DNA from: Kiritimatiellia bacterium
GTDB taxonomy: Bacteria; Verrucomicrobiota; Kiritimatiellia; RFP12; UBA1067
Direction: 5' to 3'
Length of the DNA: 35,468 nt
NCBI GenBank assembly: GCA_017563185.1
Contig: JAFXIL010000058.1
Location: forward strand, 1-35,468
Part shown: piece after piece, positions 6,724 to 21,989 of the stretch
How the letters are laid out: every line of letters begins with the position of its first letter
How positions within the stretch are numbered: position 1 is the stretch's first letter
Notes under the pieces: model-generated
What the model saw: the letters and a program-made list of their open reading frames with translations, nothing else
What the model was told of the DNA's origin: nothing
Databases searched by the model: none
Position numbers and translations under genes: made by a program

Positions 6724-9700
6724 TCAGCGGATCTTGATCTTGAAGAACTGGTCGCCAGCCGCCTTGCGGGCCTTGACCGTGAGGTCGAGAATGTCGCTGG
6801 AGACCTCCACCTTGCCGTTCGCGGGCACCGACACCTTGCCGGCCACCGTCTCGGTCCAGCCCTCGTCGGCGAGCGACTTCTTCGAGAGAAGCACGATCTC
6901 GAACTCGGGATCGGGAGCCGCGGCGAGCAGCCTGCCGCCGTTCACGCTCTTCGTCTCGCTCACGATGCTGAACTTCATGCCGCCGTCGGTGCTGAAGGAC
7001 TCAACCTTCACCTCGGTTACGGGCACGAGGTCGTTCGGATTCGTCCCGCCGCAGAGGAGGTAGGCCATGGCGAGGCTGTCGGCATCGGAGCCGGAGAGCA
7101 CGCTCATGAGCCTCGGCACCACATAGTCGCTGCCCGTTGCGAGCTGGGCGAGGCCAAGCTCGCTGTAGGCCTGGACGGTTGCGAGCAGACCCGGGTTGAC
7201 CTTCGTGAAGAAGGTGTCGCCAGCGGCGGGGTTCTGCGCGTCGAGCGAGCCGAACGTCGAGTACTCCCACGCGTCCGGGAAGCCGTCCTGGTCGGTGTCG
7301 CTGTCCTCGATGAATATCGTCACGCCGGGCACCGCGGAGCTGGGCTCCGTGACGACGACCGCGGCGGGCTTGTACACGTCGAGGTCGCTGCCGCCGATGC
7401 CGTTGGCGTATCCCCAGCTCTCCCACGGGTCGCGCATGAAGTTGCTGTTCGCGTCGATGTACGCGCACACGTAGTACGTGCCGGCGGGCAGCGCGAGCGT
7501 GACGGCGTTGACGCCCTCGACGTTCTGCGAGGTGAGCTCCGTGGCATTCGTCACCCAGCCCTCGGCAACGGGCACGCCCACGAAGTCTGGCGAGGAGAAC
7601 GCCTGCACGTGTATGAGGCTGCTGACGACCGACGGAGTGGTGGAGACCGACTCGGCGAGCGGGCCGAAGTACCGCACGTTCGCGGCGATCGTGCCGTAGC
7701 GGCGGCCGTCGTTCATCATGCCGGTAGCCTCGAGGCGGAAGTCCTGCGCCTCGTGCCAGTTCGGCGTGGTGAACTTCGCGTCGAGCATCGAGACGCGCCA
7801 CTTGTAGTTCTCCTTCGTGGTGAACACATGTCCGTTCTCGGTGACCATGCCGTCGTAGAGAGGCGCCGTCCAGCTGTACACGCCCTGCGAATTGCGGGCG
7901 GGCGCACGCCTGTCGCCGGAATCGTACACGACCGCGTTGGACGAATCGAGCACCTGCAGGCGGAACGCCGGGTAGTCCTTGATCTTATAGCCGTTCGAGT
8001 CGAGAGCCTCGTGACGCCACTGGAACGTGACCGTCGCGCCCTGCGTGGTGCCCTTCGGCGCCACAGGCGCGGCGAGCGTCTGCTGACGTCCGTACTCGTA
8101 GGCGTTCACGAAAGTGACTGCCGCGAAGGAATTGAACGTCCAGCCGGTGGCCGACCCATTGCCGTACAGCACGCGATATGTCGCGTTCGTGAGGGCGGTG
8201 GTGATCGCCGACCCGTTGTGAGTGGCCTGCCAGGCGGCGGTGAGCGTGCCCCAGTCGAGGTCGAGGAGGCCATCGGCCACGAGGTCGGCTTCGGTGAGCA
8301 TCGGATGGCCGCCAAGGTATATCTCGCGGTCGAGCACCACGCCGTTGTAAAGCGTGTTGCCCACGCCAAGCTCGCCGTTCACGGCCGTGCGGATCACGCG
8401 GATGCGGCTCGTTGCGGTCGCGGCGGGCCTGCCCTCGGCCTGCGTGCCTGGCACGCCGGCGCCAACGTCGTCGCCCTCCTCGCCGTCGTCAGGCAGCACC
8501 TTGAACGCGGTCTCTAGCGACTGGTTGGAGTAGTAGGAGCCGTTCACGGAAGTGCTCCGGTCGGTCAGCACGTCTGCCGTGGCGAAGTCCTCGGCAGCCG
8601 TCAGGCCTGCGAGGTCCATGCGCGCCATTTGCGGCGCGATGTCGGTAAGCTCAACCGAGAACGAGGCGGCAGACCAGCCAACGTCCACTTCGGAGGCCAC
8701 GCCGAGAGGCTCGCCAGGCGACCACACGCCGTTGGAGTCCATGTCGGCAAACACCACGAACATGTTCTTGCCTTCGCGCAGGTGGCCGTACTTCGTGGCC
8801 TTCGCCTCGCTGTTGTCTTCAGAACCGGAGGCGCTGCTGCTGTCGTCCCCGCCTGTTGCCGCAGTCTCGTCGGACCAGGAGAGGTAGAATTTCCCGGAAT
8901 TGCCCACGCCCGCCTTCTGCGACTGCCACACGATTCTCACGCTGGACATGGAGAGATCGGCGTACTCGAACATGCCGGTATCCTCGTCGGCCGTCCCGTT
9001 GATTTCGGAGAGCGGCTCCACGTCGACGCCCTGAAGCGTCGCGTGCGAGAAATCCACCGTCATCACGCCCGTGACGTAGTTGATCTCGCCGACCTGCTCG
9101 CGGCGCCATGTCACCATGCGCCCGTGTTCGGGGTCGCCGGCTATCGGCATGTCGTAAACGGACTCCCACCAGTTCGGCTCCTGGGACCGAATGTAGTTCC
9201 ATTCTCCGTTTTCATCTTCCCACATCTGCAGGGCGTTCGGATCGCGGAAGTGCACGCTCACGCTGCCGGCGGCCACCGAACCCGGACCGAGGCCGAAGGT
9301 CAGCACGCGGTTGCGGTTCTGGCCGATATGCTTCTCCTTGTCGGCAACGGCCCCGGGGCCGGGGATCGTCCAGGCCGCGTCCGGAAGCCCGGACATCTGC
9401 CTGTCGGAGCCATTTTCCTGCGACCATGCCTGGACGACGATCGGCGACGAGGAGAAGTTCTTCTTTCCGTTGTAAACGATACCCACTTCCACAACCGGCA
9501 CCGGGTACTCCTCAAGCGTCGCGGTGTCCGCTCCCACCATCGCCTCGAAGTCGGGCCGCGTTCCTGCCTGGTATTCCGCCCTGTTGCTCCAGCCGTCGTC
9601 GTCGGGGTCTGCCAGCGCATCCCACAGGCCGCGCGAGGCGAAGTCCACGCCGTACAGGTCTTCCCATGCGTCGCTGATCATGTCGCCGTCGGCGAACATC

Positions 9701-12700
9701 TGGCCGAGGTAGAGCGAGCCGACCCGCAGGAAGTAGTCCGGCACGCCCTGGCCGAACGTGTTCGGCTTGATCGGGCTGATGGCCGGGAAGCCGTACTTCA
9801 CGAAGCCCTCGGAGATCAGATACTCCGCGTAGTTGGAGAGCTGGTCGTTGTCATGGTCGCCATAGGCGGTCTCGCTGGCGATGCCGTTCAGGCGCTCCCA
9901 CCAGTCTGGCATGCCGTCCTTGTCGGTGTCGCGCTTGTCGGCGAACGTGTTCTCGGCAACGCCGCCGGGGAGCATGCCGCTCGCGAGGTCGCGCATATAC
10001 GCTTCACGCGCCGTCATCTCCGTGCCGGAGGCGTCGGGCCATTTCACGATGGAGGACCATTCGATGTCCTCGGGCGCGCCGTAGCTGCCGATCGCGATCT
10101 CCTGCCACCAGTCGGGCATGCCGTTGCCGTCGACGTCGGCGAGAGCGGAGCCGCCGTTGGCCGTGACTTCCCAGGCATCGGCAGCGCCGTCTCCGTCCCA
10201 CATCTCCTCGGTGCGCTTGGCGAACGCGCCGCCGAGAGGAACGAGGTCGGAAGTGCCCACGAAGCCGCTGCGAATCTCGAACGCGTAGGCCGTGCGGTTC
10301 GTCGCGAAGCTCGCGTCAGCCTCGGCCATGTAGTTCAGGAAGAACTCATGGTAGGCCCTCTCGGAGCTGTAGTTGTACATCGGATAAGGATGCGCAGTGT
10401 TCGGGAAGAGGATCTTCTTCACCTCGCCGACAGTGGCTGCGGCGGCAAGTTCGTTGATTTCACCGTACACCTCCCTCGCGGCGGCTGTGCCGCCGAAGAA
10501 CTCGCTCCAGTAGCGCGAATCGGCGCAGGAGCCGTCCATGAACGGCAGATGGCCGCACGTGTTCTGGATCCACGGCACCCAGCGGTAGTTCTCATAGACG
10601 GTGCTGTGCACGGGCAGGGCGCTCCACCAGCCGCACTCGAAGGTGCCGGCGGGCAGCACGCCGTCCATGTCGCGCACGTTGTCGAAGACGTACTTCGTGA
10701 AGCCGGCGGGCTCCCAGAGGACGTCTGTGGCGTTCACGGCGCCGGGCATCGCCTGGAACGCATAGTGCTGCAGAAGCTCGGCGGGCAGCATGCCCTTGCC
10801 GTCGTTGTCGTTGCGCGTGTAGCCCTTCAGCCAAGCGGCGTACACCTCGTCGCGCTGTGCGGCGACGTCGGCGAAGCTAAAGCGCTTCTTGTAGGAGGCC
10901 TTGATCTCGCTGAGAGTGCGCACGCCGTCCCACACGCGCACTTCGTCGATGTAGCCCTGGTAGAAGTTCGCGTAGCTCTTCCACGTCGTCTCCTCTGTGA
11001 GGCCGATGGCCGTTCCGTCCATGGCCTGGGCGCCGAGCACGAACGCGCACGGGAGGTTGATGTAGCCGTTCTCGAGAACCGGGAAGTTTTCCATGCCGAT
11101 CACGGCCTCCTGATGCATCACCACAAGGCCGTTGGCGGGCTCGAGCGAGGTGGCGGTGATGCCGGAGACGCGGCCGTCCTGATGCAGCTTCAGCTCCTTG
11201 CCGTCGTATGTGAGGGCCACGTGCTGCCACTTGCCCTGCTCGGGCACCGTGCCGATTACCGTGGGCGAACCAGGACCAGTGCCGGAAGGAACGGCGTCGG
11301 ACGTGTCGAAGAGACCGTACACGCGGCCGTCGGCCTTGATGCCGATGCGGAAGTTGGCGCGAATCTGGGCCTCGTCGTTCTCGTAGGTGGAGGAGGTGTA
11401 CCTGCATGCACGCTCGAGAACCACCTGCTCACGTGTGAGGTCTTCGGGGCAGATCCACGCCTCGACCGTGAACTGACGCAGCACGTCGTACTGGTCGCCG
11501 TTCGGACGGTGGAAGTAGCCGGAATAGGAGACCGCGGCGGATTCTGCGCCGGGGAACCACATCGCCTGGCGACGGTCAGGATCCGCGAATATGAGCGGGT
11601 CGGAGATGGCGTTGCCCGTCATCGCGCGCTCGTCGGCGTCTGCTACGCGATCGTTGTCGGTGTCGTAGCCTTCGTTCTCCTCGAAGGAGTACATGAAGGT
11701 GCCGGAGGTCGATCCTTCCATGGTCTTGCCGGAGCCGACGGACCAGAACCAGGGATATACCGCGAAGTCGGGCGAGTCGACGTACGGGTCGAGCTGATAG
11801 TACTGAACCGTGAAGCTTGCGTTGTTGAGCGCCGTCGAGTCGGTGTACCACAACGGAGTCGGGTCGGTGTGGGTGGGCATAGGCGAGGTCATGTTCACAA
11901 TCAGCGCCTCGGAGATGTTTCTAAGGCCATCGCCGTCAGCGTCAGCCTCGGGCGTGCCCATCATCCAGGGATAGGCGATTGCGTCGAACTTGGGCTCGTC
12001 GCCGTTCCAGGGCTGCTGCGGCCAGCCAGTCCAGCCGTTGCACCAGTGGTTGATCATGCCCATGTACTGCGCGGCGATCACGTCATAGTCGAGGCCGCCG
12101 TCCTGCACGGAGCCGAGCAGCGGGTTGAGGCCGTGGAAGATCTCGTAGAAGTCGTCCATGCCGTCCATGTCGGTATCCCACTGGCGGGGATCGGTGCTGA
12201 CGTATCCAAGGGCCGGGAAACGCTGGCCGTTGGGGTCGAGGCCGGCGGGCGTGAGCATCACGCGGTAGCCGAGGTCATCATAGTTGACCATGCCCTCTGT
12301 GTAGTTGTTGAGGCTCAGCCAGTCCCATTCCTGCGGCGGCTTTACGAAGTAGCCGAGGTACTCGAACTGCCAGGCGCCGGTGGCGGCGAAGCCGTTGTCC
12401 TTGCACGCCTTGTAGAACGTGTCGCCGTCCATGATGTTCATCGGCAGGAAGCTCACGAACTTGCGCGACCTCTCGGGGCCGTCGGGGATCCAGCTGCCCA
12501 TGAGCGGCGTCTCGGAGTCGTCGTAGCGGAGATGGCGCAGGGACTGCACGAGGTACTCCTGGAAGTTCTGGAGGCCGTCGTGGTCGAAGTCGAAGTCGCG
12601 ACGAGTGCCGGTGCGCGGGTCGCGCGAGACCACGTCGAAGAACGCGCCGGAGCGGCCGAGGTTTCCGTCGGGCAGAAGCGTGAAGGCGTCGCCCGCGTAC

Positions 12701-15700
12701 GTGCCGTCCATGCCGCCGGTGATGTAGAAGCCTGCGGCTGCGGCGCCTTCAGCCCCAAGCCCGTCGCCGCGGCGGATCATCTTCAGCACGTCGTCGTCGA
12801 GCACGCCGCCGGCGTCGCGCGCCTCGGCGGTGAAGAGGATGCCCGCGAACTGCCGTTCCCAGGCGTCGGGCAGAAGGTCGCCGTCGGTGTCGACGGTGCA
12901 CGGGTTCAGGCCGCCGCCGCGGATGCAGAGCTCCCTGTTCGACGGGTCGGCCTTCTCCTCGTCGGGCTTTCCGTCGCGGTCGCCGTAGATGAAGGTGAAG
13001 CCGTGGGCGACGATCGAGGTCGATTTGCCCCACACCCAGTCGGCCACCCATCCGGCGCCCTCGGCGCCGTCCGAGAGGCCGTCGCCGTCGGTGTCGGTGT
13101 TGTTCGGATCGGTGGGGAAGAACTTGTTGAACCAGCCGGAGTTGAGGCCGGTGTGCTGCGAGTAGATGGTCTCGCAGCCGGAGTAGGCGTTGCAGGAGTC
13201 GGTGCCGGCGAACTCGGCCACGAGGTTGAGGCCGTCGTTGTCCACGTCGGCAGTGTCGGCCGCGCGGCCGTCGTTCGGATTGTGGCCCACGTAGAGCTCC
13301 CAGCCGTCGGGAACGCCGTCCTTGTCGGTGTCTGCGCCGTGGTTGTCGCTGGCGTAGGTCTGGCTCATCGACTCGGTGACCCAGTCGGGATCCTCGTAGG
13401 CGACGTTCGGGTTGGTGGTGCCGCGGCGGAGGACGCGTTCGTGGCGGCGCTGCTTCCTGTCGTTCCAGAGCGCCTTGTCGGCCGCCTTGGAGAAGACGAA
13501 CGCCTCGCCGGCGTCTTCGTCCCAGCCCTCCATCGCGGGCGTCGCCTCGTAGCGGTACTTGAGGAGGAGGTACTCGTCGCGCGCGGTGTAGCCCTTGGTG
13601 TTCACGGGCTCACCGGCGCCGTTGAGATACACCGAGCCGACGATGACCGAATTTGGCTCCCAGCGGCGCGCGAGGTAGCCGTGGTCGTTGATGTTCCAGC
13701 CGGTGCGCGGATCGAACCCGAACTGGTTGTACACCTGGTCGTGGATGAGCGCAAGGGACTGGCCGAGGGCGACGGAGACGATGTTCGTGTTGCCTTCGAG
13801 CAGAAGCGAAGTCGCGGAGAGGGGCGGCAGCCCGGCCGAGCCGCGGTTCTTCGGCACGCACACGGCGGAAGCGTCGCCGTAGCGGAACACGGCGATGGCG
13901 TTCAAGTTGGTGACGCCGTCGGTGAACTTCCACGCGCCGCCCTCTTCGGCGGTGATGAAGTTGCCACCGTCGTTCGGGAGGGCGTATTCGCCGAGGCCGT
14001 CGATTTTGACGATGGCGTATTCGCCGGGGGTGGTGAAGTAGGCCATGAAGTCGCCGTCGGCGTTCATGCCGCCGTTGTTGGCGTTGTCGGCCTTGACGGG
14101 ATTCATGCCGCGCATGATCTCCCAGAGATCGGAGAGGCCGTCCCCGTCGGTGTCCCAGCTGATCGGGCTGGTGCCAAGAGCATACTCCTCGAGGTCGGTG
14201 AGGCCGTCGTTGTCGGTGTCGCGCTCGTTGGCGGAAGCCGTGGATGCCTGCGTGGGATCGAACGCGGCGGCGATCTCCTCGGGGGTGAGCTCCTCGCCCA
14301 CGGCGATGTCGTCGATGGAGAACTTGGTGCCGCGGAGGCGGTTGTCGATGCCGTCAACGCCGACCATGGCGCTGTACCAGAAGTAGTACTCGTAGCCGTC
14401 GGGGAATCCGTCTTCGTCCGTGTCGGCCACTGTCGGGTCGGTGCGGTTCTCGGGAATCCAGCTGTTGGCCGCGTTGAGCCCGGCTGTCCAGGCGGCGACT
14501 TCCGTGGCGTTGGTCGGATTGGGCAGACGGCGAATCGGGTTGCCTTCCTCGTCGGTGTCCTCGACCCAGAGGTTGTTCACGCGGGCGATCGCGTTCGACT
14601 CTGCCTCGGAGAACGACGGAATGGATATCCACGCGCCGCGCACGTTGCGGTTGAGGCCGTCGTTGTCGGCACGCATGTTGAGGCCGTCGTGGAAGCCGCG
14701 GATTTCGAGAATCGCCCTGAACTCGCCGCCGAGGCGGGCCCAGTTCTGGACGTTCTCAACGAGGGAGCCGCCATGCGCGGTCAGCGCGGGCAGGAAGTCC
14801 TCGTCCATGTTGGCCGCGGCGAGGGCTCTGAGGTCGCCGCCCTCCTCAAGCTCCACCGCGTCCTCGACGGCCTGGTAGAGGCGGCCGCCGGCCCAGGTGG
14901 TGTTGGCGGCGTACACGTCGGGGATGCCGTCCTGGTTGATGTCGCCCACGTTGTCCTCCTTGTAGCGCTCGATGGAGAAGATGGCCTCCACCATGGTGCG
15001 GGGGAAGGAGGGCGCCTCGTCGTCGGCCTCCGGCATCTGCACGCGGTTTTCGCCGGTGGAGCTGTTCACCTCGGGCTGGACGGTGCCGCTGAGGTGGGAG
15101 GAGTTGCCCTCCTCGGTGTCGTAGAACAGCCAGCAGTAGAAGTAGCTGTCCATGCCGTTGCCGGGGTTGTAGGTGTAGTACGAGCCGTAGGAAGAGGGCG
15201 TGTTGTACCAGGTGCCGGCGTTGTCAACCGCGTAGTCGCGGCTGCCGGCGGGGCCGAGGCTGCCGTTGTCCACGTCGCCCACCTTGTAGCCGTATGCGTA
15301 GATCTTCGGGTTGAGGTCGTTGGCGGGCTGGAAGTCCCAGTACTGCGTGAAGTTGCTCACGCGCGTGGGATAGTCGGCCGAGGTGCACCACACGCGGCCG
15401 GCGCCGATGCCCACCGCGCCGGTGTACTTCTGCGAGAACGCGGATAGCGCGCCGGTGTTCGGGCGGCGAGGAGTGATCTCGAGGCCCATCGAGGCCTCCA
15501 CCTTGTAGTACCAGGTGCGGGTGTCGGTGCCGCCGTCCTTGTCCTGCACCATGAGCGTGACCTCCTTGTGGCCCGCGCTCGTGAAGATGATCTGCTTGTT
15601 GTAGGTGCCGGTGGTGGACTGCGTGGTCGTCTGCGACGAGCCGTTGTAGCTCCACGTCACGGTCATGTTCTGCTGGTCGGGCAGCACGTCCCTCACGTTC

Positions 15701-18700
15701 CACGTGATGTTGAACGGCACGTTGAGGGCGGCCGGGCGCTCGTTCGTGGAGACCACCTCGCCGGGACCGATCTTCGGATCGACGTTGGCCACAAAGATGT
15801 CGAAGTCCGTCACAGGCTGGTAGTACTGGCGCCACGTCTTGTTGGGGTCGGCCGTGCTGGGCGTCGTCTCGAGTATCTGGGCGTTGATGCGGAAGCCCTT
15901 GAGCTCGCTCTGCGGCGTGCCGTCAAGCTCGCTGAGGTAGAAGTAGCCGCTCGTCTGGCCGTTCTTGAATTCGATCTCGGTGCGGTTCAGAACGGGCATC
16001 ATGCCGTCGTTGAGGCCGTTGCGCAGAACAGTGAGCTGCACCGTGATGCTGCCGCCAACTTCAAGGCCTGTGGGCGGCACGTTCAGCTCGACGTTGATGC
16101 GGCCGCTGATCGGGCCAGTGTCGTTCTCGTTGAACACGTTGCTGCCAAGGGCGGGCGAGAGCGAGATCGCGGGCGCGTCGATCACCGTGACGTTCACCAC
16201 GAACTCGGGCGCCTCGTCGAACTCCTGGTCGGTCATGTCCTTGTCGCGCACCTTTGCCGTGACCTGGGCGTTGCCGGCGTTGCTGAAGGTGTGGGTGACG
16301 CTCTTGCCGGTGGGGGCGCCCCTGATGAGCTTCTTCTCCACCACTGCTCCGTTCTCCCAGAAGCGCAGCTCGGTATACGCCTTGTCGCCGTCCTCAAAGT
16401 CGAAGTAGCTGATGGCGGGGTCGGCGATGCCGATGGTGAATGTCTTCTCCACACCCATGGGCACCGCGGCCGTGTAGGTGCCGCCGCTCGTGGTCATGGG
16501 GGTGTCGTTCATCGAGATGTAGGAAATCCTCGGCGCAACGTTGGTGGAGTTGATGTAGAACGTCTTGCCGGTCCAGGCGCGGATGACGTTGTCCATCGTG
16601 TTGTCGTTGGCGTCGCGCACTTCGACCTCGAAGCGGAGGTTGCAGCCGGTGTAGCCGTCCTTCAGCTTGATCTTGGCGGAGCCGGTGGAAGCCCTGTCGC
16701 CGTTGTAGATGAAGGTGGAGGTGGTGTGGCTGTCGTCGTTCTGCGATGCGACGTAGGTGAGGTTGGAGGTCACCTCGTCGGCAGGATAGATGAACACGTA
16801 TGCCTGATCGGCAAGGCTCTCCTGGAACGCGTCGGAGAAGTTGAAGTTGACCGTGACCTCGTCGCCTTCCTTGTAGGGGGCGTTGCCCTTGTCAAGAACG
16901 GCGGTTACGGTCTTCGGCGCGCTCACGTTCACCTTGATGGAGTGGACGGGCGACTTCGCGCCGCCCTCGTTCATGACGTAGAACTTGGTCTGGTACGGGG
17001 ACCCAGGCTCGGAGGCCGTCACGTAGCGGCGCGGCACCACGAGCTCGCCGCCGGCGCTGGCGTGAAGACCGGGCACCGCGTCGTAGGAGCCGCTGCCGGT
17101 GTTGTCCCAGTACACGGTGTACGTGCCGTCGCTGATTTCGCCGATGGCGTCCTGGATCTGGATCGTGAAGTCGGTGACGACGTTGCCGGGCACGTTGAAG
17201 TATTCATAGCCGTTGACGGGCGAGACCACGTCGAGCGCGCCGCCGTTGTAGTTGATGCGCACGGAGTCGGGCGAGATCGCGCCCGTGAAGAACGCGCGCG
17301 CCTGCGCCGAGAGGGCGGTCTCGTCAACGGAGAACTGGATTCCCTTGAGGGTGTGCTCGTCGGCCCTGTTCGCGTAGAGGTAGAGCATGCTGCCGGATTC
17401 GGAGGCGAGGGTGCAGCCCTTGTTCACCGTCATGGTGACGACCCTCTGCGAGTATTCGTCGGAGCCTTCGCCGTTGAGGGAGACGCCGATGTACTTCCAG
17501 GGATCGGCAGTCTCGTCGTCCTTCATCTTGGGAACGAGCGTGACCGTGAGGGGATCGTCGTAGGGCCAGGGCTCGGTGAGCTCGAGGTCGATGGACGCGA
17601 CGGAAATCGTGTAGTCTGCCGACGTCTTAACCTCGTCGGCGCTGATGTTGACGGCCATGCCGGGCGGCGGCGGCTCCACCACGCGGATCGTGCGCCACGT
17701 GAAGTTGGTTAGCAGCGTGCCGGCCGAGTTGTACACGTTCGTGGGCGTGGCGGCCATGAAGACCTCGGTGGAGGAGCCCACCTTGTCGGCCGCGCCCCTG
17801 ATGCGGAAGGGAATCTCCTCGTCGCCGGGCTTGATGCTGACCGCGGCCACCTTGCGCGTCACGCCGTCCTTGAAGACGTAGTCGGTGCCGTTCACCACCT
17901 CGGCGATGGCGGGATCCTTCACCCACACGTACAGAACCTGCGAAGCCTCGCTGCCGCCCGGCACGGAGATGGCGGGCATGGCGGGGATGGCGGTGGTGGA
18001 GCCGGCGGCGATGCTGCGCCACACGGTCTCGTCGTCTGTTGTTCTCGAATCGAAGTCCGCCGCGCGGATGTAGATGCCGGCGAGGCTGAGGTCGTAGTCG
18101 CGCACGTTGCCGTACGTTCCGTCGGCCGTGACCACGTTCGGATGATAGACGCCGGTGCTGAGGCTCTGGTCGCCGAAGAAGAACTGCAGCTGGTTTGCGT
18201 TCTTGTACGCGACTCCGCTGTTGACGGCGGGGAAGTAGTTCCAGAGGTCGCTGTAGAGCATGTAGTACGACTCGCTGTACCATGCGCCGTCAAGGTTCAT
18301 CGCCTCGCCGAGGCCGTCGGGGCGCACGAGCTTGAGAGGCATGGCCAGATCGCCGCGCTGCACGACGTAGGAGCAGATGAACTCCGTGAAGAATCCGTCG
18401 TCCGACTGCTTCAGCTCCTCGATCTTTGCGAACCTGCGCTGGCCGCTGACCCACAGGCCCACCTGCGGCATGCTGTTGGTGTCGGCAATCGGGTCGTTGG
18501 GGCCCACATGCTGGAGCGACCACGGGTTGCGGTACTCGTCTTCGCTCGCCGGCGGCTGGGCGGGATCGATGTCGCCGCGGCGGCGGTTGACGACGCGGAT
18601 CTTGAACTTCACCTTTTCGCCGGCCACCAGAGGCTCGTTCAGGTTGGGGTACGTGCGCACCACCGTCTCAGGGTCCGAGTAGACCTCGATGGAGCGAATG

Positions 18701-18789
18701 TCGCCCGCCGCCTTCGCCGTGCGCGGCAGAGCGCACGCGAGCGCGGTAAGCGCCATCGCCAAGATGCCAAGCGTTTTCTTTGTCTTCAT
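6724..18789 (-). CDS. Giant exported protein (~4021 aa): Ig/PKD-like modules, DxDxDG calcium-binding repeats, LamG domain
   Basis: The start is placed at the ATG at 18789 because a GGAAGGAAG sequence precedes it and the protein then begins with a good signal peptide (MKTKK, hydrophobic core, AKA near residue 28). An in-frame ATG at 18828 overlaps the upstream stop but would put 13 odd residues ahead of the signal. Residues to about 1350 look like serial beta-sandwich (Ig, PKD or Calx-beta-like) modules. From about 1460 there are roughly 17 DxDxDG-type motifs followed by a short helix (e.g. DTDGDGLSDLWE near 1550, DTDKDGMPDWWE near 2950), like thrombospondin type-3/EF-hand loops. A LamG/jelly-roll domain lies at about 2435-2635, with FTVEAWICPE at its start and GYIDEVRVWDG at its end. 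More beta modules follow, then a final DTDQDGFPDAWE near 3826, and the chain ends FFKIKIR. It is probably a calcium-stiffened surface or adhesive protein. No catalytic domain, sortase motif or beta-barrel was seen. Confidence 0.9.
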   Translation of the reverse strand: MKTKKTLGILAMALTALACALPRTAKAAGDIRSIEVYSDPETVVRTYPNLNEPLVAGEKVKFKIRVVNRRRGDIDPAQPPASEDEYRNPWSLQHVGPNDPIADTNSMPQVGLWVSGQRRFAKIEELKQSDDGFFTEFICSYVVQRGDLAMPLKLVRPDGLGEAMNLDGAWYSESYYMLYSDLWNYFPAVNSGVAYKNANQLQFFFGDQSLSTGVYHPNVVTADGTYGNVRDYDLSLAGIYIRAADFDSRTTDDETVWRSIAAGSTTAIPAMPAISVPGGSEASQVLYVWVKDPAIAEVVNGTDYVFKDGVTRKVAAVSIKPGDEEIPFRIRGAADKVGSSTEVFMAATPTNVYNSAGTLLTNFTWRTIRVVEPPPPGMAVNISADEVKTSADYTISVASIDLELTEPWPYDDPLTVTLVPKMKDDETADPWKYIGVSLNGEGSDEYSQRVVTMTVNKGCTLASESGSMLYLYANRADEHTLKGIQFSVDETALSAQARAFFTGAISPDSVRINYNGGALDVVSPVNGYEYFNVPGNVVTDFTIQIQDAIGEISDGTYTVYWDNTGSGSYDAVPGLHASAGGELVVPRRYVTASEPGSPYQTKFYVMNEGGAKSPVHSIKVNVSAPKTVTAVLDKGNAPYKEGDEVTVNFNFSDAFQESLADQAYVFIYPADEVTSNLTYVASQNDDSHTTSTFIYNGDRASTGSAKIKLKDGYTGCNLRFEVEVRDANDNTMDNVIRAWTGKTFYINSTNVAPRISYISMNDTPMTTSGGTYTAAVPMGVEKTFTIGIADPAISYFDFEDGDKAYTELRFWENGAVVEKKLIRGAPTGKSVTHTFSNAGNAQVTAKVRDKDMTDQEFDEAPEFVVNVTVIDAPAISLSPALGSNVFNENDTGPISGRINVELNVPPTGLEVGGSITVQLTVLRNGLNDGMMPVLNRTEIEFKNGQTSGYFYLSELDGTPQSELKGFRINAQILETTPSTADPNKTWRQYYQPVTDFDIFVANVDPKIGPGEVVSTNERPAALNVPFNITWNVRDVLPDQQNMTVTWSYNGSSQTTTQSTTGTYNKQIIFTSAGHKEVTLMVQDKDGGTDTRTWYYKVEASMGLEITPRRPNTGALSAFSQKYTGAVGIGAGRVWCTSADYPTRVSNFTQYWDFQPANDLNPKIYAYGYKVGDVDNGSLGPAGSRDYAVDNAGTWYNTPSSYGSYYTYNPGNGMDSYFYCWLFYDTEEGNSSHLSGTVQPEVNSSTGENRVQMPEADDEAPSFPRTMVEAIFSIERYKEDNVGDINQDGIPDVYAANTTWAGGRLYQAVEDAVELEEGGDLRALAAANMDEDFLPALTAHGGSLVENVQNWARLGGEFRAILEIRGFHDGLNMRADNDGLNRNVRGAWISIPSFSEAESNAIARVNNLWVEDTDEEGNPIRRLPNPTNATEVAAWTAGLNAANSWIPENRTDPTVADTDEDGFPDGYEYYFWYSAMVGVDGIDNRLRGTKFSIDDIAVGEELTPEEIAAAFDPTQASTASANERDTDNDGLTDLEEYALGTSPISWDTDGDGLSDLWEIMRGMNPVKADNANNGGMNADGDFMAYFTTPGEYAIVKIDGLGEYALPNDGGNFITAEEGGAWKFTDGVTNLNAIAVFRYGDASAVCVPKNRGSAGLPPLSATSLLLEGNTNIVSVALGQSLALIHDQVYNQFGFDPRTGWNINDHGYLARRWEPNSVIVGSVYLNGAGEPVNTKGYTARDEYLLLKYRYEATPAMEGWDEDAGEAFVFSKAADKALWNDRKQRRHERVLRRGTTNPNVAYEDPDWVTESMSQTYASDNHGADTDKDGVPDGWELYVGHNPNDGRAADTADVDNDGLNLVAEFAGTDSCNAYSGCETIYSQHTGLNSGWFNKFFPTDPNNTDTDGDGLSDGAEGAGWVADWVWGKSTSIVAHGFTFIYGDRDGKPDEEKADPSNRELCIRGGGLNPCTVDTDGDLLPDAWERQFAGILFTAEARDAGGVLDDDVLKMIRRGDGLGAEGAAAAGFYITGGMDGTYAGDAFTLLPDGNLGRSGAFFDVVSRDPRTGTRRDFDFDHDGLQNFQEYLVQSLRHLRYDDSETPLMGSWIPDGPERSRKFVSFLPMNIMDGDTFYKACKDNGFAATGAWQFEYLGYFVKPPQEWDWLSLNNYTEGMVNYDDLGYRVMLTPAGLDPNGQRFPALGYVSTDPRQWDTDMDGMDDFYEIFHGLNPLLGSVQDGGLDYDVIAAQYMGMINHWCNGWTGWPQQPWNGDEPKFDAIAYPWMMGTPEADADGDGLRNISEALIVNMTSPMPTHTDPTPLWYTDSTALNNASFTVQYYQLDPYVDSPDFAVYPWFWSVGSGKTMEGSTSGTFMYSFEENEGYDTDNDRVADADERAMTGNAISDPLIFADPDRRQAMWFPGAESAAVSYSGYFHRPNGDQYDVLRQFTVEAWICPEDLTREQVVLERACRYTSSTYENDEAQIRANFRIGIKADGRVYGLFDTSDAVPSGTGPGSPTVIGTVPEQGKWQHVALTYDGKELKLHQDGRVSGITATSLEPANGLVVMHQEAVIGMENFPVLENGYINLPCAFVLGAQAMDGTAIGLTEETTWKSYANFYQGYIDEVRVWDGVRTLSEIKASYKKRFSFADVAAQRDEVYAAWLKGYTRNDNDGKGMLPAELLQHYAFQAMPGAVNATDVLWEPAGFTKYVFDNVRDMDGVLPAGTFECGWWSALPVHSTVYENYRWVPWIQNTCGHLPFMDGSCADSRYWSEFFGGTAAAREVYGEINELAAAATVGEVKKILFPNTAHPYPMYNYSSERAYHEFFLNYMAEADASFATNRTAYAFEIRSGFVGTSDLVPLGGAFAKRTEEMWDGDGAADAWEVTANGGSALADVDGNGMPDWWQEIAIGSYGAPEDIEWSSIVKWPDASGTEMTAREAYMRDLASGMLPGGVAENTFADKRDTDKDGMPDWWERLNGIASETAYGDHDNDQLSNYAEYLISEGFVKYGFPAISPIKPNTFGQGVPDYFLRVGSLYLGQMFADGDMISDAWEDLYGVDFASRGLWDALADPDDDGWSNRAEYQAGTRPDFEAMVGADTATLEEYPVPVVEVGIVYNGKKNFSSSPIVVQAWSQENGSDRQMSGLPDAAWTIPGPGAVADKEKHIGQNRNRVLTFGLGPGSVAAGSVSVHFRDPNALQMWEDENGEWNYIRSQEPNWWESVYDMPIAGDPEHGRMVTWRREQVGEINYVTGVMTVDFSHATLQGVDVEPLSEINGTADEDTGMFEYADLSMSSVRIVWQSQKAGVGNSGKFYLSWSDETAATGGDDSSSASGSEDNSEAKATKYGHLREGKNMFVVFADMDSNGVWSPGEPLGVASEVDVGWSAASFSVELTDIAPQMARMDLAGLTAAEDFATADVLTDRSTSVNGSYYSNQSLETAFKVLPDDGEEGDDVGAGVPGTQAEGRPAATATSRIRVIRTAVNGELGVGNTLYNGVVLDREIYLGGHPMLTEADLVADGLLDLDWGTLTAAWQATHNGSAITTALTNATYRVLYGNGSATGWTFNSFAAVTFVNAYEYGRQQTLAAPVAPKGTTQGATVTFQWRHEALDSNGYKIKDYPAFRLQVLDSSNAVVYDSGDRRAPARNSQGVYSWTAPLYDGMVTENGHVFTTKENYKWRVSMLDAKFTTPNWHEAQDFRLEATGMMNDGRRYGTIAANVRYFGPLAESVSTTPSVVSSLIHVQAFSSPDFVGVPVAEGWVTNATELTSQNVEGVNAVTLALPAGTYYVCAYIDANSNFMRDPWESWGYANGIGGSDLDVYKPAAVVVTEPSSAVPGVTIFIEDSDTDQDGFPDAWEYSTFGSLDAQNPAAGDTFFTKVNPGLLATVQAYSELGLAQLATGSDYVVPRLMSVLSGSDADSLAMAYLLCGGTNPNDLVPVTEVKVESFSTDGGMKFSIVSETKSVNGGRLLAAAPDPEFEIVLLSKKSLADEGWTETVAGKVSVPANGKVEVSSDILDLTVKARKAAGDQFFKIKIR

Positions 18790-18824
18790 GTTGCCGCTTC
18801 CTTCCGTTGAAACTTTACCGTCCG

Positions 18825-19313
18825 TCATTTAGAGGCGACGGGCGCCGCCGTCGCCTTCCCCTGGGCGACGGCCCTCTGGTCCGCCGCCTCCTTTTCGATG
18901 CGACGCCGCACTATGCCGCGCACATCTGCCAACTCTTTCTCCGCCCTCGCGCTCGCTTTCGCGTGCGCGACGACAAGCTGCCTCCAGCCCGCGTACTTCG
19001 CGGGATTGCCGTCTAGCTCGGCCTTGATCTGCTCTTCGGTGGCGTCCTCGCCGACAGCGCGGCGGGCGCGCGCCTTGAGCATGTCCATCTGCCGCGTGAT
19101 CTTCGCAAGGGCCACCGCCGTCCGCGTCTGCTGCGCCGCCTGGTCCTTGAGCTCCTTTGTGTAGGCGGGGTCGCTGCCGCGAGACACATGCACCTCGGGC
19201 TTCCTCTCGCAGCCCTCAAAAGCCGCGAAAGCAAGCAAACACGCCACCGCCGCAAACGGTGCAATGATCTGTATTCTCTTTTTTTCCATTTGATCGATCA
19301 GCCTCGAGAACAC
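18825..19313 (-). CDS. Small probable lipoprotein encoded just upstream of the giant protein
   Basis: 162 residues from a GTG at 19313 with a strong GGGAGGT just before it; an ATG at 19289 is the alternative but has no good ribosome binding site. A hydrophobic stretch (about 16-33) ends in FEGC, an imperfect lipobox, so lipid attachment at that Cys is likely but not certain. The mature part is almost entirely charged and helical, rich in Ala, Lys, Arg and Glu, and probably coiled coil. No family is recognised. The stop lies 35 bases before the start of the giant gene and no terminator separates them, so the two form a unit. A periplasmic or outer-membrane partner that helps export or anchor the giant protein is possible; that is inference from position only. 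Confidence 0.75.
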   Translation of the reverse strand: MFSRLIDQMEKKRIQIIAPFAAVACLLAFAAFEGCERKPEVHVSRGSDPAYTKELKDQAAQQTRTAVALAKITRQMDMLKARARRAVGEDATEEQIKAELDGNPAKYAGWRQLVVAHAKASARAEKELADVRGIVRRRIEKEAADQRAVAQGKATAAPVASK

Positions 19314-19336: not shown

Positions 19337-19366
19337 ATTTTATCATTGTTTGCATGGATGTTGCAA
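19337..19366 (-). promoter_or_regulatory. Candidate promoter of the lipoprotein-giant protein unit
   Basis: TTGCAA (19361-19366) and TAAAAT (19337-19342) on the minus strand are 18 bases apart. A transcript starting about 7 bases further on would have a leader of roughly 17 bases containing the GGGAGGT ribosome binding site of the lipoprotein gene. Confidence 0.5.
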
Positions 19367-19390
19367 GGGAGAAATGAATTTTTTGCGGAC

Positions 19391-19762
19391 TATCTGATGC
19401 GGATGCTGAAGGAGGAGCGCACGAGCTCGAGCGCGTAGCTGCCATCGGCGCGCTGCGACATGCGCGCCGCCGCCAAGATCGCACCGCGTTCCCGTCGCCA
19501 GGTCAAGCGCGTCGAGGCTCGCCGCCTCGGCGGCGACGGTCAGCGCGCCGTTCGCGAGCGAGATCTTCTCGAGCGCCGGCAAGGCCTTCGTGCCGGATCG
19601 GCCGATGATGCCGGCGTCCACATACTGCACGCCGCTCGATTCCACGTATTCGACGAACTTGTCGGGCGTGTCGGCAAACGCCGCACCGGCCGCCGCCGCG
19701 ATCAACAGCATGGACATTGCTCTTTTCAGTCGTTTCCTTTCTGACGCATCGTATGCATTCAT
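19391..19762 (-). pseudogene. Decayed exported-protein gene with a frameshift
   Basis: A frame beginning at an ATG at 19762 (other ATGs at 19795 and 19831) gives a basic N-terminus and a hydrophobic signal-like core ending AAFA. A segment DKFVEYVESSGVQYVDAG follows, then a short leucine/alanine-rich part. That frame then runs into an Arg-rich, low-quality tail ending at 19343. A one-base shift near 19483 instead gives a sensible ending: DGSYALELVRSSFSIRIR and a TAG at 19391-19393. That ending is like the FFKIKIR end of the giant protein. I read this as a remnant of a larger exported protein that has lost its middle and picked up a frameshift; a sequencing error in an intact short gene is the alternative. 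The exact start is uncertain and no good ribosome binding site was found. Confidence 0.55.
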
Positions 19763-19842
19763 CCACTTGCGGATATTAGAGCAAAAATCCGTCATGGCCA
19801 CATCACCGCCTGCAAATTGATGCGCGGACATAAAACACGCAC

Positions 19843-19974: not shown

Positions 19975-20601
19975 TCATATCCGCTCGGCGGCAGCGGCCA
20001 TTTCACGGCCGATGGCGGCTATGCGCCTCTCTATGCGCGTCTTCACCTGGCTTACGCTGTTGCGGGATAGCTTGAAATGCTTCGCAGCTTCGTCTATCGA
20101 GTGCCCTTCCTGCACGTAGAAGCGGTAGATCTCGCGATCCCTGTCGGAAAGCGCCGTCTTTGTCATCACATGCTCCACGGCGGCGGCGAGGATGGCGCGT
20201 TGCCAGTCGGCATCGACCTCGACCTGGCCAGGGGCCTCCTGGCCAGGATCGGCGAGCGTCTCCTGCAGCACTTCGTCCAGGGGCACATGCGAATCTGTCC
20301 TGCGCACTTCGTCCTTGCGGCGCTGCATGTGCACCTCGTTGTAGATCATGGCCGCAAGGTACGAGTGGAAGCTGCCCTTCTCTGGCTGGTACTGGCCGCT
20401 GCGCAGCACGTCCACCAGCTTGGCGAGCACCGTCATCACGATGTCGTCGACATTGGCGCCGGCGCCTTTGAACACTGCGAAGGCGCGCATGGCGGGGGCG
20501 TAGAGATCCCAGAACCTGTTCCACACGGCGGAATCCTGCCCGCGCGCAAGGTCCTTTATCTTGGCGATGAGGGTGAAGGATGTTTCGGGGAACGTGCTCA
20601 T
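19975..20601 (-). CDS. ECF-type RNA polymerase sigma factor
   Basis: 208 residues. Sigma region 2 spans about 25-100 (with FWDLYAPAMRAF and later SYLAAMIYNEVHMQRR) and region 4 about 148-195 (LSDRDREIYRFYVQEGHS, then a helix-turn-helix EAAKHFKLSRNSVSQVKTRI). It should direct RNA polymerase to a small regulon. In region 2.2 the usual DAEDLVQE pattern reads NVDDIVMT (residues 50-57): the first Asp is Asn, and the Gln-Glu pair is Met-Thr. Loss of these acidic residues with a Thr in their place recalls ECF sigmas switched on by threonine phosphorylation (Vibrio EcfP/PknT). The gene overlaps the upstream Ser/Thr kinase gene by ATGA, which fits such a pairing. No anti-sigma gene is seen nearby. Confidence 0.88.
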   Translation of the reverse strand: MSTFPETSFTLIAKIKDLARGQDSAVWNRFWDLYAPAMRAFAVFKGAGANVDDIVMTVLAKLVDVLRSGQYQPEKGSFHSYLAAMIYNEVHMQRRKDEVRRTDSHVPLDEVLQETLADPGQEAPGQVEVDADWQRAILAAAVEHVMTKTALSDRDREIYRFYVQEGHSIDEAAKHFKLSRNSVSQVKTRIERRIAAIGREMAAAAERI

Positions 20602-21953
20602 TGAGGCGTCTTTCCTTCCAGGCGGTCGGCCATGTCGCCTAGCATGCGGGCGAGAGCTGCAGGTTCGGAGAGCTGCTCATACTCGTCCTGCGGCTCGAAA
20701 TACGAGTCCACGCCGTCATCGTCGGAAGCGAGCTGCGAGAGACGGCGAACCTGCTCTGCGGCGCGCGCGCGCGTGGTCTTGCCGCTCTCCACGTCGGCGA
20801 GAAGGCGATGCGTGAGCACCCATGCGTCGATCTGCGCAAGCTCAAAGTCGGCGCGCGACATTTCGTCGCCGTCGTCGGTGGACTGCCCGTCCATGGGCAG
20901 GGCGCAGAGCAGTTCGAACGATGGCAGTCTCTCCGCCGTCGCGCGGGAATAGAACCACGCCAGGCCGCCGCCGCACGCGCATGCCGCGGCAATGGCGGCC
21001 GCGAGAAGTCCGATCAGCCACTTCTTCGCCTTCTTCGCGCGGCGCAGCTTGCCGCGAGCGTCTTCGTATGCCTTCTCGGACTGAAACGCCTCCTCCTCGC
21101 GGCGGGCCTTCTCAAGCTCGCGCCACGAAGGGCACTCCCTTCCCGCCGGGTTCAGGTGCAGCAGCTTCGGCAGTATCTGCGTCCACACCGGGTTGTATGT
21201 CTCAAGATCTCCCGCCACGTCCGTGCGCGCATCGCACCACACTCCCGTGAGCAGACGGAACACGAGCACCCCAAGCGCATACCAATCGCTCGCCTCGCTC
21301 GCCTCCACTCCCATCTCCACCTCGGGCGCAAGATACCCCACGCTTCCCATCACCTGCCTCTGGCCGCGGCGTGCCGCCACCAGCGTCTGCTCCGCCGAGA
21401 GTCCAAGATCGGCCCGCAGCTTGGGGTTGAATATCTGCGCCACGCCGAAGTCGCTCAGCACCACATGGCCGTCCGGCCCCACCAGCACGTTCTGGAGCTT
21501 GAGGTCGCGGTGCAGGATGCCTTTCTTGTGGATGTACTCAAGACCGTCGCGAAGATCTTCGTACCACATCGCCACCTGGTCTTCGTCCACGCCTTCCGCG
21601 CCGGCGTCCGCGAGAGTGCGCGGCCGCCCCTCAGGGTCAAGCACTAAATCCATCACGAAGTACGGCCTGCCGCTCGCCTCGTCCTCGCCTATGGCGTACA
21701 CTCCTACGAGACGCGGATGGCGCAGCTTGGCAAGCAGCCTGCCCTCGGCGAAGAACCGCCAGCGCACCGCCTCCTGCTCGCCGCGCTCATAGGTGAAGAG
21801 CTTCAATGCATAGCGCACTCCAAGCTGCACGTCCTCCACCTCGTACACCTCGGCCATGCCGCCCTTCGCAAGCAGCTTCACCACTTTCCAGCCGTCGAGA
21901 AGCGCACCTTCCTTCAGAGCGCCGCCTGCGCCTGTCTCTTTCCCTTGTTCCAT
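20598..21953 (-). CDS. Transmembrane Ser/Thr protein kinase paired with the ECF sigma factor
   Basis: Starting at the ATG at 21953 the product has 451 residues; an upstream extension in frame is Arg/Cys-rich and unlikely. The kinase domain has all key features: Gly-rich loop AKGGMAEVYE (29-38), ATP lysine K51, helix-C Glu70, catalytic HRDLKLQN (148-155), DFG (168-170) and APE (209-211). A membrane helix follows at about 312-336, then a ~115-residue extracytoplasmic C-terminal part rich in acidic residues with no known sensor fold. It presumably senses an envelope signal and phosphorylates a cytosolic target, most simply the sigma factor encoded by the next, overlapping gene. A -10-like box 7 bases before the ATG suggests a leaderless message. 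Confidence 0.9.
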   Translation of the reverse strand: MEQGKETGAGGALKEGALLDGWKVVKLLAKGGMAEVYEVEDVQLGVRYALKLFTYERGEQEAVRWRFFAEGRLLAKLRHPRLVGVYAIGEDEASGRPYFVMDLVLDPEGRPRTLADAGAEGVDEDQVAMWYEDLRDGLEYIHKKGILHRDLKLQNVLVGPDGHVVLSDFGVAQIFNPKLRADLGLSAEQTLVAARRGQRQVMGSVGYLAPEVEMGVEASEASDWYALGVLVFRLLTGVWCDARTDVAGDLETYNPVWTQILPKLLHLNPAGRECPSWRELEKARREEEAFQSEKAYEDARGKLRRAKKAKKWLIGLLAAAIAAACACGGGLAWFYSRATAERLPSFELLCALPMDGQSTDDGDEMSRADFELAQIDAWVLTHRLLADVESGKTTRARAAEQVRRLSQLASDDDGVDSYFEPQDEYEQLSEPAALARMLGDMADRLEGKTPQ

Positions 21954-21960
21954 GCGCAAT

Positions 21961-21989
21961 ATTCTATCAAATCCTGAGGGGATGTGCAA
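21961..21989 (-). promoter_or_regulatory. Candidate promoter giving a leaderless kinase-sigma transcript
   Basis: TAGAAT (21961-21966), five of six consensus bases, ends exactly 7 bases before the kinase ATG. A weak TTGCAC (21984-21989) lies 17 bases further up. Transcription starting at the usual distance would begin at the A of the ATG. No Shine-Dalgarno sequence is present, which fits. Confidence 0.45.

Follow-up and report, generated by a model that had tools for sequence, protein, structure and literature searches.

Direct activation of an ECF sigma factor by a kinase is known from EcfP/PknT of Vibrio parahaemolyticus and EcfK/PknS of Xanthomonas citri (PMC8999054, PMC13147305). In EcfP, the equivalent of the DAED motif reads STTA and the second Thr, the third residue of the motif, is phosphorylated (PMC8999054), while EcfK reads QATE at this place, with T51 as the Thr (PMC13147305). 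A Thr at the third DAED position is conserved in 88% of the ECF43 group (PMC13147305, PMC8999054). EcfK remains functional as a T51A mutant, and another phosphosite, located in the linker, can take the place of T51 (PMC13147305), so that a simple switch is not general even in ECF43. ECF59, ECF61, ECF62, ECF217 and ECF283 also lie beside Ser/Thr kinases and have kept DAED or an acidic motif like it (PMC8999054); kinase-linked ECFs outside ECF43 keep the acids that are absent from EcfP. We found no study of kinase-sigma pairs in Kiritimatiellae in the literature.

We analyzed a stretch of 35,468 nucleotides (the window), which, like the loci of the ECF43 pairs EcfP/PknT and EcfK/PknS, encodes an ECF sigma factor with a Thr in region 2.2 beside a predicted transmembrane Hanks-type kinase, without an anti-sigma factor. 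The features of the locus are as follows.

21961..21966, minus strand: -10-like TAGAAT box, ending 7 nt before the kinase ATG
20598..21953, minus strand: Hanks-type Ser/Thr kinase gene, 451 aa, ATG at 21951-21953, Pkinase match
21144..21905, minus strand: kinase domain, residues ~17-270 (G-loop, K51, HRD, DFG, APE)
20961..21017, minus strand: predicted transmembrane helix of the kinase, residues 313-331, from hydropathy (separate evidence gives a helix at 277-328)
20601..20960, minus strand: C-terminal 120 residues of the kinase past the membrane helix, helical and conserved, candidate sensor domain
20598..20601, minus strand: ATGA overlap of kinase stop and sigma start, kept in most orthologues
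19975..20601, minus strand: ECF sigma factor gene, 208 aa, sigma2 and sigma4 domains, from a TIGR02937 match and the structure model
20431..20454, minus strand: codons of the region 2.2 core-contact motif, sigma residues 50-57 (NVDDIVMT), with the Thr57 codon at 20431-20433

Judged from the sequences compared, the pair is of a known general kind, the kinase-paired ECF, to which a clade-specific change of the core-contact motif is added. It appears to differ from ECF59, ECF61, ECF62, ECF217 and ECF283 in its host lineage, Kiritimatiellae, and in its motif with Asn50, Met56 and a non-acidic residue 57.

The kinase-sigma pair and its conservation

The sigma factor matched the sigma70-ECF family TIGR02937 with 58.8 bits (cut-off 42.9), and its Pfam region 2 and region 4 scores were slightly below the cut-offs. 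A structure model built from 26 sequences (pTM 0.53, with poor inter-domain placement) contained the ECF helices and showed residues 48-68, which bear region 2.2, as a single helix. Its top Foldseek match in the PDB was E. coli sigmaE/RseA (1or7), with several ECF sigma factors just behind; a PDB search with the sigma factor as a single sequence gave no match, and a profile search gave weak matches only. In tblastn, the closest named records were MAGs; they include 'Kiritimatiellae bacterium' RGIG4394, found in roe deer omasum (88% identity), as well as 'uncultured Lentisphaerae bacterium' RUG572. The host is probably a gut member of Kiritimatiellae.

The kinase gave a Pkinase match of 112.6 bits, contains the G-loop, the VAxK lysine, HRD, DFG and APE of Hanks-type kinases, and has PknA and StkP as its closest solved relatives by sequence. 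Its hydropathy profile shows one hydrophobic helix, residues 313-331, followed by 120 residues, so the description of a complete transmembrane kinase in the first-pass annotation was borne out by both the catalytic motifs and the helix. The catalytic residues are retained in all complete kinase orthologues, and in the activation segment T190 is nearly invariant and S204 fully invariant, as expected for activation by autophosphorylation. Conservation in the C-terminal part centers on PxF and DAWVLTH, and this helical part beyond the membrane helix is a candidate sensor, predicted to be extracytoplasmic.

A search of 115 genomes of the family, which are fragmentary MAGs, yielded 31 orthologous sigma genes. 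The kinase gene lies directly upstream in 25 of them, nearly always with the same 4-base overlap, and the ATGA overlap reported earlier for the window was confirmed together with its coordinates. The other six were scored as lacking an adjacent kinase: in four genomes (G080, G085, G103, G120) the best kinase match is on a different contig from the sigma gene, in G115 a kinase match lies upstream on the same contig with its frame displaced or interrupted, and in G003 a second sigma copy has no kinase within 2.4 kb upstream. The remaining flanking genes vary between species in the 20 orthologous loci compared. No conserved anti-sigma neighbor was found in these loci, and a search of the window's genome with one Pfam family, zf-HC2, gave no anti-sigma domain above the cut-off. 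Within this neighborhood and this family we therefore rejected a hidden anti-sigma factor, in agreement with the earlier claim of control without one. The sigma gene thus stands beside an STK gene in a pair conserved across species and has no adjacent anti-sigma gene, as in STK-linked ECFs.

Upstream of several kinase orthologues, a TATAAT-like box stands as far from the ATG as the TAGAAT box does in the window. Across window positions 21954-21966 and the loci L135-L175, which are partly redundant, TAWAAT boxes lie 6-7 nt before the ATG in 23 of 114 cases, compared with ~3 at each other spacing, an excess that points to leaderless transcripts in the lineage. The boxes suggest that transcription of the operon starts from a housekeeping-type promoter and gives a leaderless transcript, in which case control would act after translation.

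The neighborhood contains several recurrent proteins. Proteins that carry a thioredoxin-like CxxC segment, mostly with a signal peptide, lie near the pair in five of the 20 loci (L136, L137, L138, L140, L150), acidic proteins of ~230 aa with one N-terminal hydrophobic helix in six (L141, L142, L148, L149, L152, L154), and a second family of ~290 aa in four (L139, L148, L149, L150). In the window, the sigma gene is two genes upstream of a gene (6724-18828, minus strand) for a giant protein of 4034 aa that has a signal peptide and in which acidic TDxDxDGxxD segments recur. A short gene at 19343-19831 (minus strand) encodes a signal peptide and a YVESSGVQYVDAG segment followed by an apparently out-of-frame stretch, and is possibly the truncated remnant of a surface protein.

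Region 2.2 of the sigma factor

Re-reading the sequence confirmed NVDDIVMT at residues 50-57. Against the core-contact motif DxxDxxQE, D50 is replaced by N, Q56 by M and E57 by T. We compared these positions with those of 78 related ECFs, most of which are also kinase-linked. Asn50 is present in 27 of the 31 orthologues, compared with D or E in 75 of the 78 related ECFs; Met56 in 29, compared with Gln in 76; and residue 57 is acidic in none, compared with 71. The altered positions mark the 31-member clade, so the change is not due to chance, and among the sequences compared here the combination of Asn50, Met56 and a non-acidic residue 57 occurs in this clade alone. The near-fixed Asn50 and Met56 look like a retooled core-binding face rather than decay. 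Residues 52 and 53 are both acidic in all 31 orthologues (residue 52 is Asp in 30 and Glu in one). The proposal that acidic contacts with RNA polymerase are weakened therefore holds only in part: Asp52 and Asp53 are retained, and with them the sigma factor may bind core without phosphorylation.

In sigma32, several residues contact the beta-prime clamp helices, D77 and E81 among them (PMC10216364); by motif spacing these two correspond to D53 and residue 57 of the window sigma factor. A Thr does sit at a polymerase-contact Glu position, as had been claimed, the position being that of sigma32 E81 (PMC10216364). The analogy to EcfP that had been drawn for Thr57 is misplaced, because the phospho-Thr of EcfP (PMC8999054) aligns with Asp52, which is already acidic; by its position in the motif, Thr57 was rejected as the equivalent of that residue. 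Thr57 is an unconserved residue five positions past the ECF43 phospho-Thr, where DxxDxxQE has its Glu. The window pair shares with ECF43 the adjacent Hanks kinase gene, but neither the replacement of the DAED acids by uncharged residues (most of these acids are missing in ECF43, while the window reads NVDD and its clade keeps both D52 and D53) nor the conserved Thr at the third position. The clade is thus intermediate: the acids at DAED positions 3 and 4 remain, but those at D50 and QE are gone.

Other kinase-linked ECFs in the genome and the family

The window's genome has 13 kinase matches and 12 sigma70-family genes, two of primary type and ten ECFs. Eight of the ten ECFs adjoin a kinase gene on the same strand, with either gene coming first (G000 C171, C180, C3, C53, C29, C78, C177, C205; L039, L108, L113, L115, L005-L008), which suggests that ECF control in the genome relies mainly on kinase pairing. 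The ECF on C164 is convergent with a kinase gene, and the only other one (C193) overlaps a membrane-protein gene whose product may be an anti-sigma factor.

Among the 78 non-orthologous ECF matches, 59 have a kinase gene on the same strand, again in both orders. Many of these paralogous pairs from the same genus or family resemble the window pair in gene order and ATGA overlap, and their sigma and kinase sequences are related to it. Unlike the window pair, most (47/59) have the whole motif D/E50-D/E52-D53-Q56-D/E57 intact, and 52 of the 59 have Asp or Glu at position 57, so loss of the Glu is not required for kinase pairing. It is also possible without a kinase, since the C193 ECF, with its possible anti-sigma factor, reads DLAQRTF. 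C171, another kinase-linked ECF of this genome, has a Thr at the Glu position (EDVVQT), but most of its relatives have Glu there. A Cys occupies this position in the kinase-linked ECF of L115 (G000 C177, AEDVAQC).

A proposed phosphorylation model and its alternatives

From the gene arrangement and the conserved motifs, we regard it as reasonably probable that in gut Kiritimatiellae the kinase and its cognate ECF form a two-gene unit in which an envelope signal leads through autophosphorylation and sigma phosphorylation to core binding. The predicted extracytoplasmic domain of the kinase would sense the signal, the kinase would autophosphorylate in its activation segment before phosphorylating the sigma factor translated along with it, and the phosphorylated sigma factor would bind core RNA polymerase. 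We infer the signal, the phosphorylation of the sigma factor by the kinase and the activation that would result; by precedent, direct phosphorylation is the most likely mode. A more specific version, which we consider rather unlikely, is that the rebuilt motif (D50N, Q56M, acid lost at 57) makes holoenzyme formation dependent on phosphorylation at a site other than that of EcfP, with Thr or Ser57 serving some lineages only.

The first-pass annotation took Thr57 itself as the switch. For the lineage of the window, this would mean that phospho-Thr57 restores the missing Glu charge and lets the sigma factor bind beta-prime. The kinase gene next to the sigma gene and the match of position 57 to the clamp-helix contact E81 of sigma32 (PMC10216364) would suit such a role, as would the Thr or Ser found in all eight of the closest sequences (at least 71% identity), and in the six orthologues classed as lacking an adjacent kinase the residue is Gln (four), Val (one) and Thr (one). 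However, residue 57 is T in 13, Q in nine, S in four, V in two and K, R and A in one each of the 31 orthologues, which is Ser or Thr in 17 and Thr itself in fewer than half, an outcome that the annotation had itself named as one that would refute its proposal. A complete kinase adjoins the sigma gene in nine orthologues that have K, R, V, A or Q at this position. The position is the fifth most variable among sigma residues 26-99, and in a tree of the 31 orthologues and outgroup ECFs (all with D or E at 57) that was built without the residue-57 column, the orthologues are separated from the outgroup by a branch with 100/100 support and show at least five changes between Ser/Thr and other residues at 57. 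No orthologue is acidic there, and the Thr of C171 stands among relatives that mostly have Glu. We therefore rejected Thr57 as a conserved switch, and from this distribution residue 57 is unlikely to be a phosphosite across the clade. A lineage-specific role in the closest sequences is possible, although a Thr57 switch even in the window's lineage seems quite improbable to us. The residues that occur naturally at position 57 (T, S, Q, A, V, K, R) offer a ready-made test of kinase-linked ECF control.

The kinase could instead act as a membrane anchor or anti-sigma factor that holds the sigma factor until autophosphorylation or the signal frees it, with phosphorylation of the sigma factor not being key. 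Tight gene overlaps of the ATGA type are frequent in sigma/anti-sigma pairs, the clade-fixed N50 and M56 could form a docking face, and no further partner gene is conserved. Yet all catalytic residues of the kinase are retained and precedent points to sigma phosphorylation (PMC13147305), which makes this role doubtful in our view. It is very unlikely that the main substrates of the kinase are elsewhere and the sigma factor is merely co-expressed: the two genes are apparently separate in four genomes, but related sigma and kinase genes are paired repeatedly, on the same strand and in both orders, in the non-orthologous matches described above (59/78).

For the phosphorylation model, we searched the sigma factor for candidate sites. 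A linker phosphosite like T106 of EcfK was rejected, because the linker residues T102 and S104 of the window sigma factor are not conserved among the orthologues. Ser or Thr is invariant in all 31 orthologues at T7, S8, S80, S152 and S184. At positions 80 and 184, the paralogues have Ser far less often, and the conserved serines may be structural or DNA-contacting residues rather than phosphosites. T7 and T10 are common to nearly all relatives and may be helix caps.
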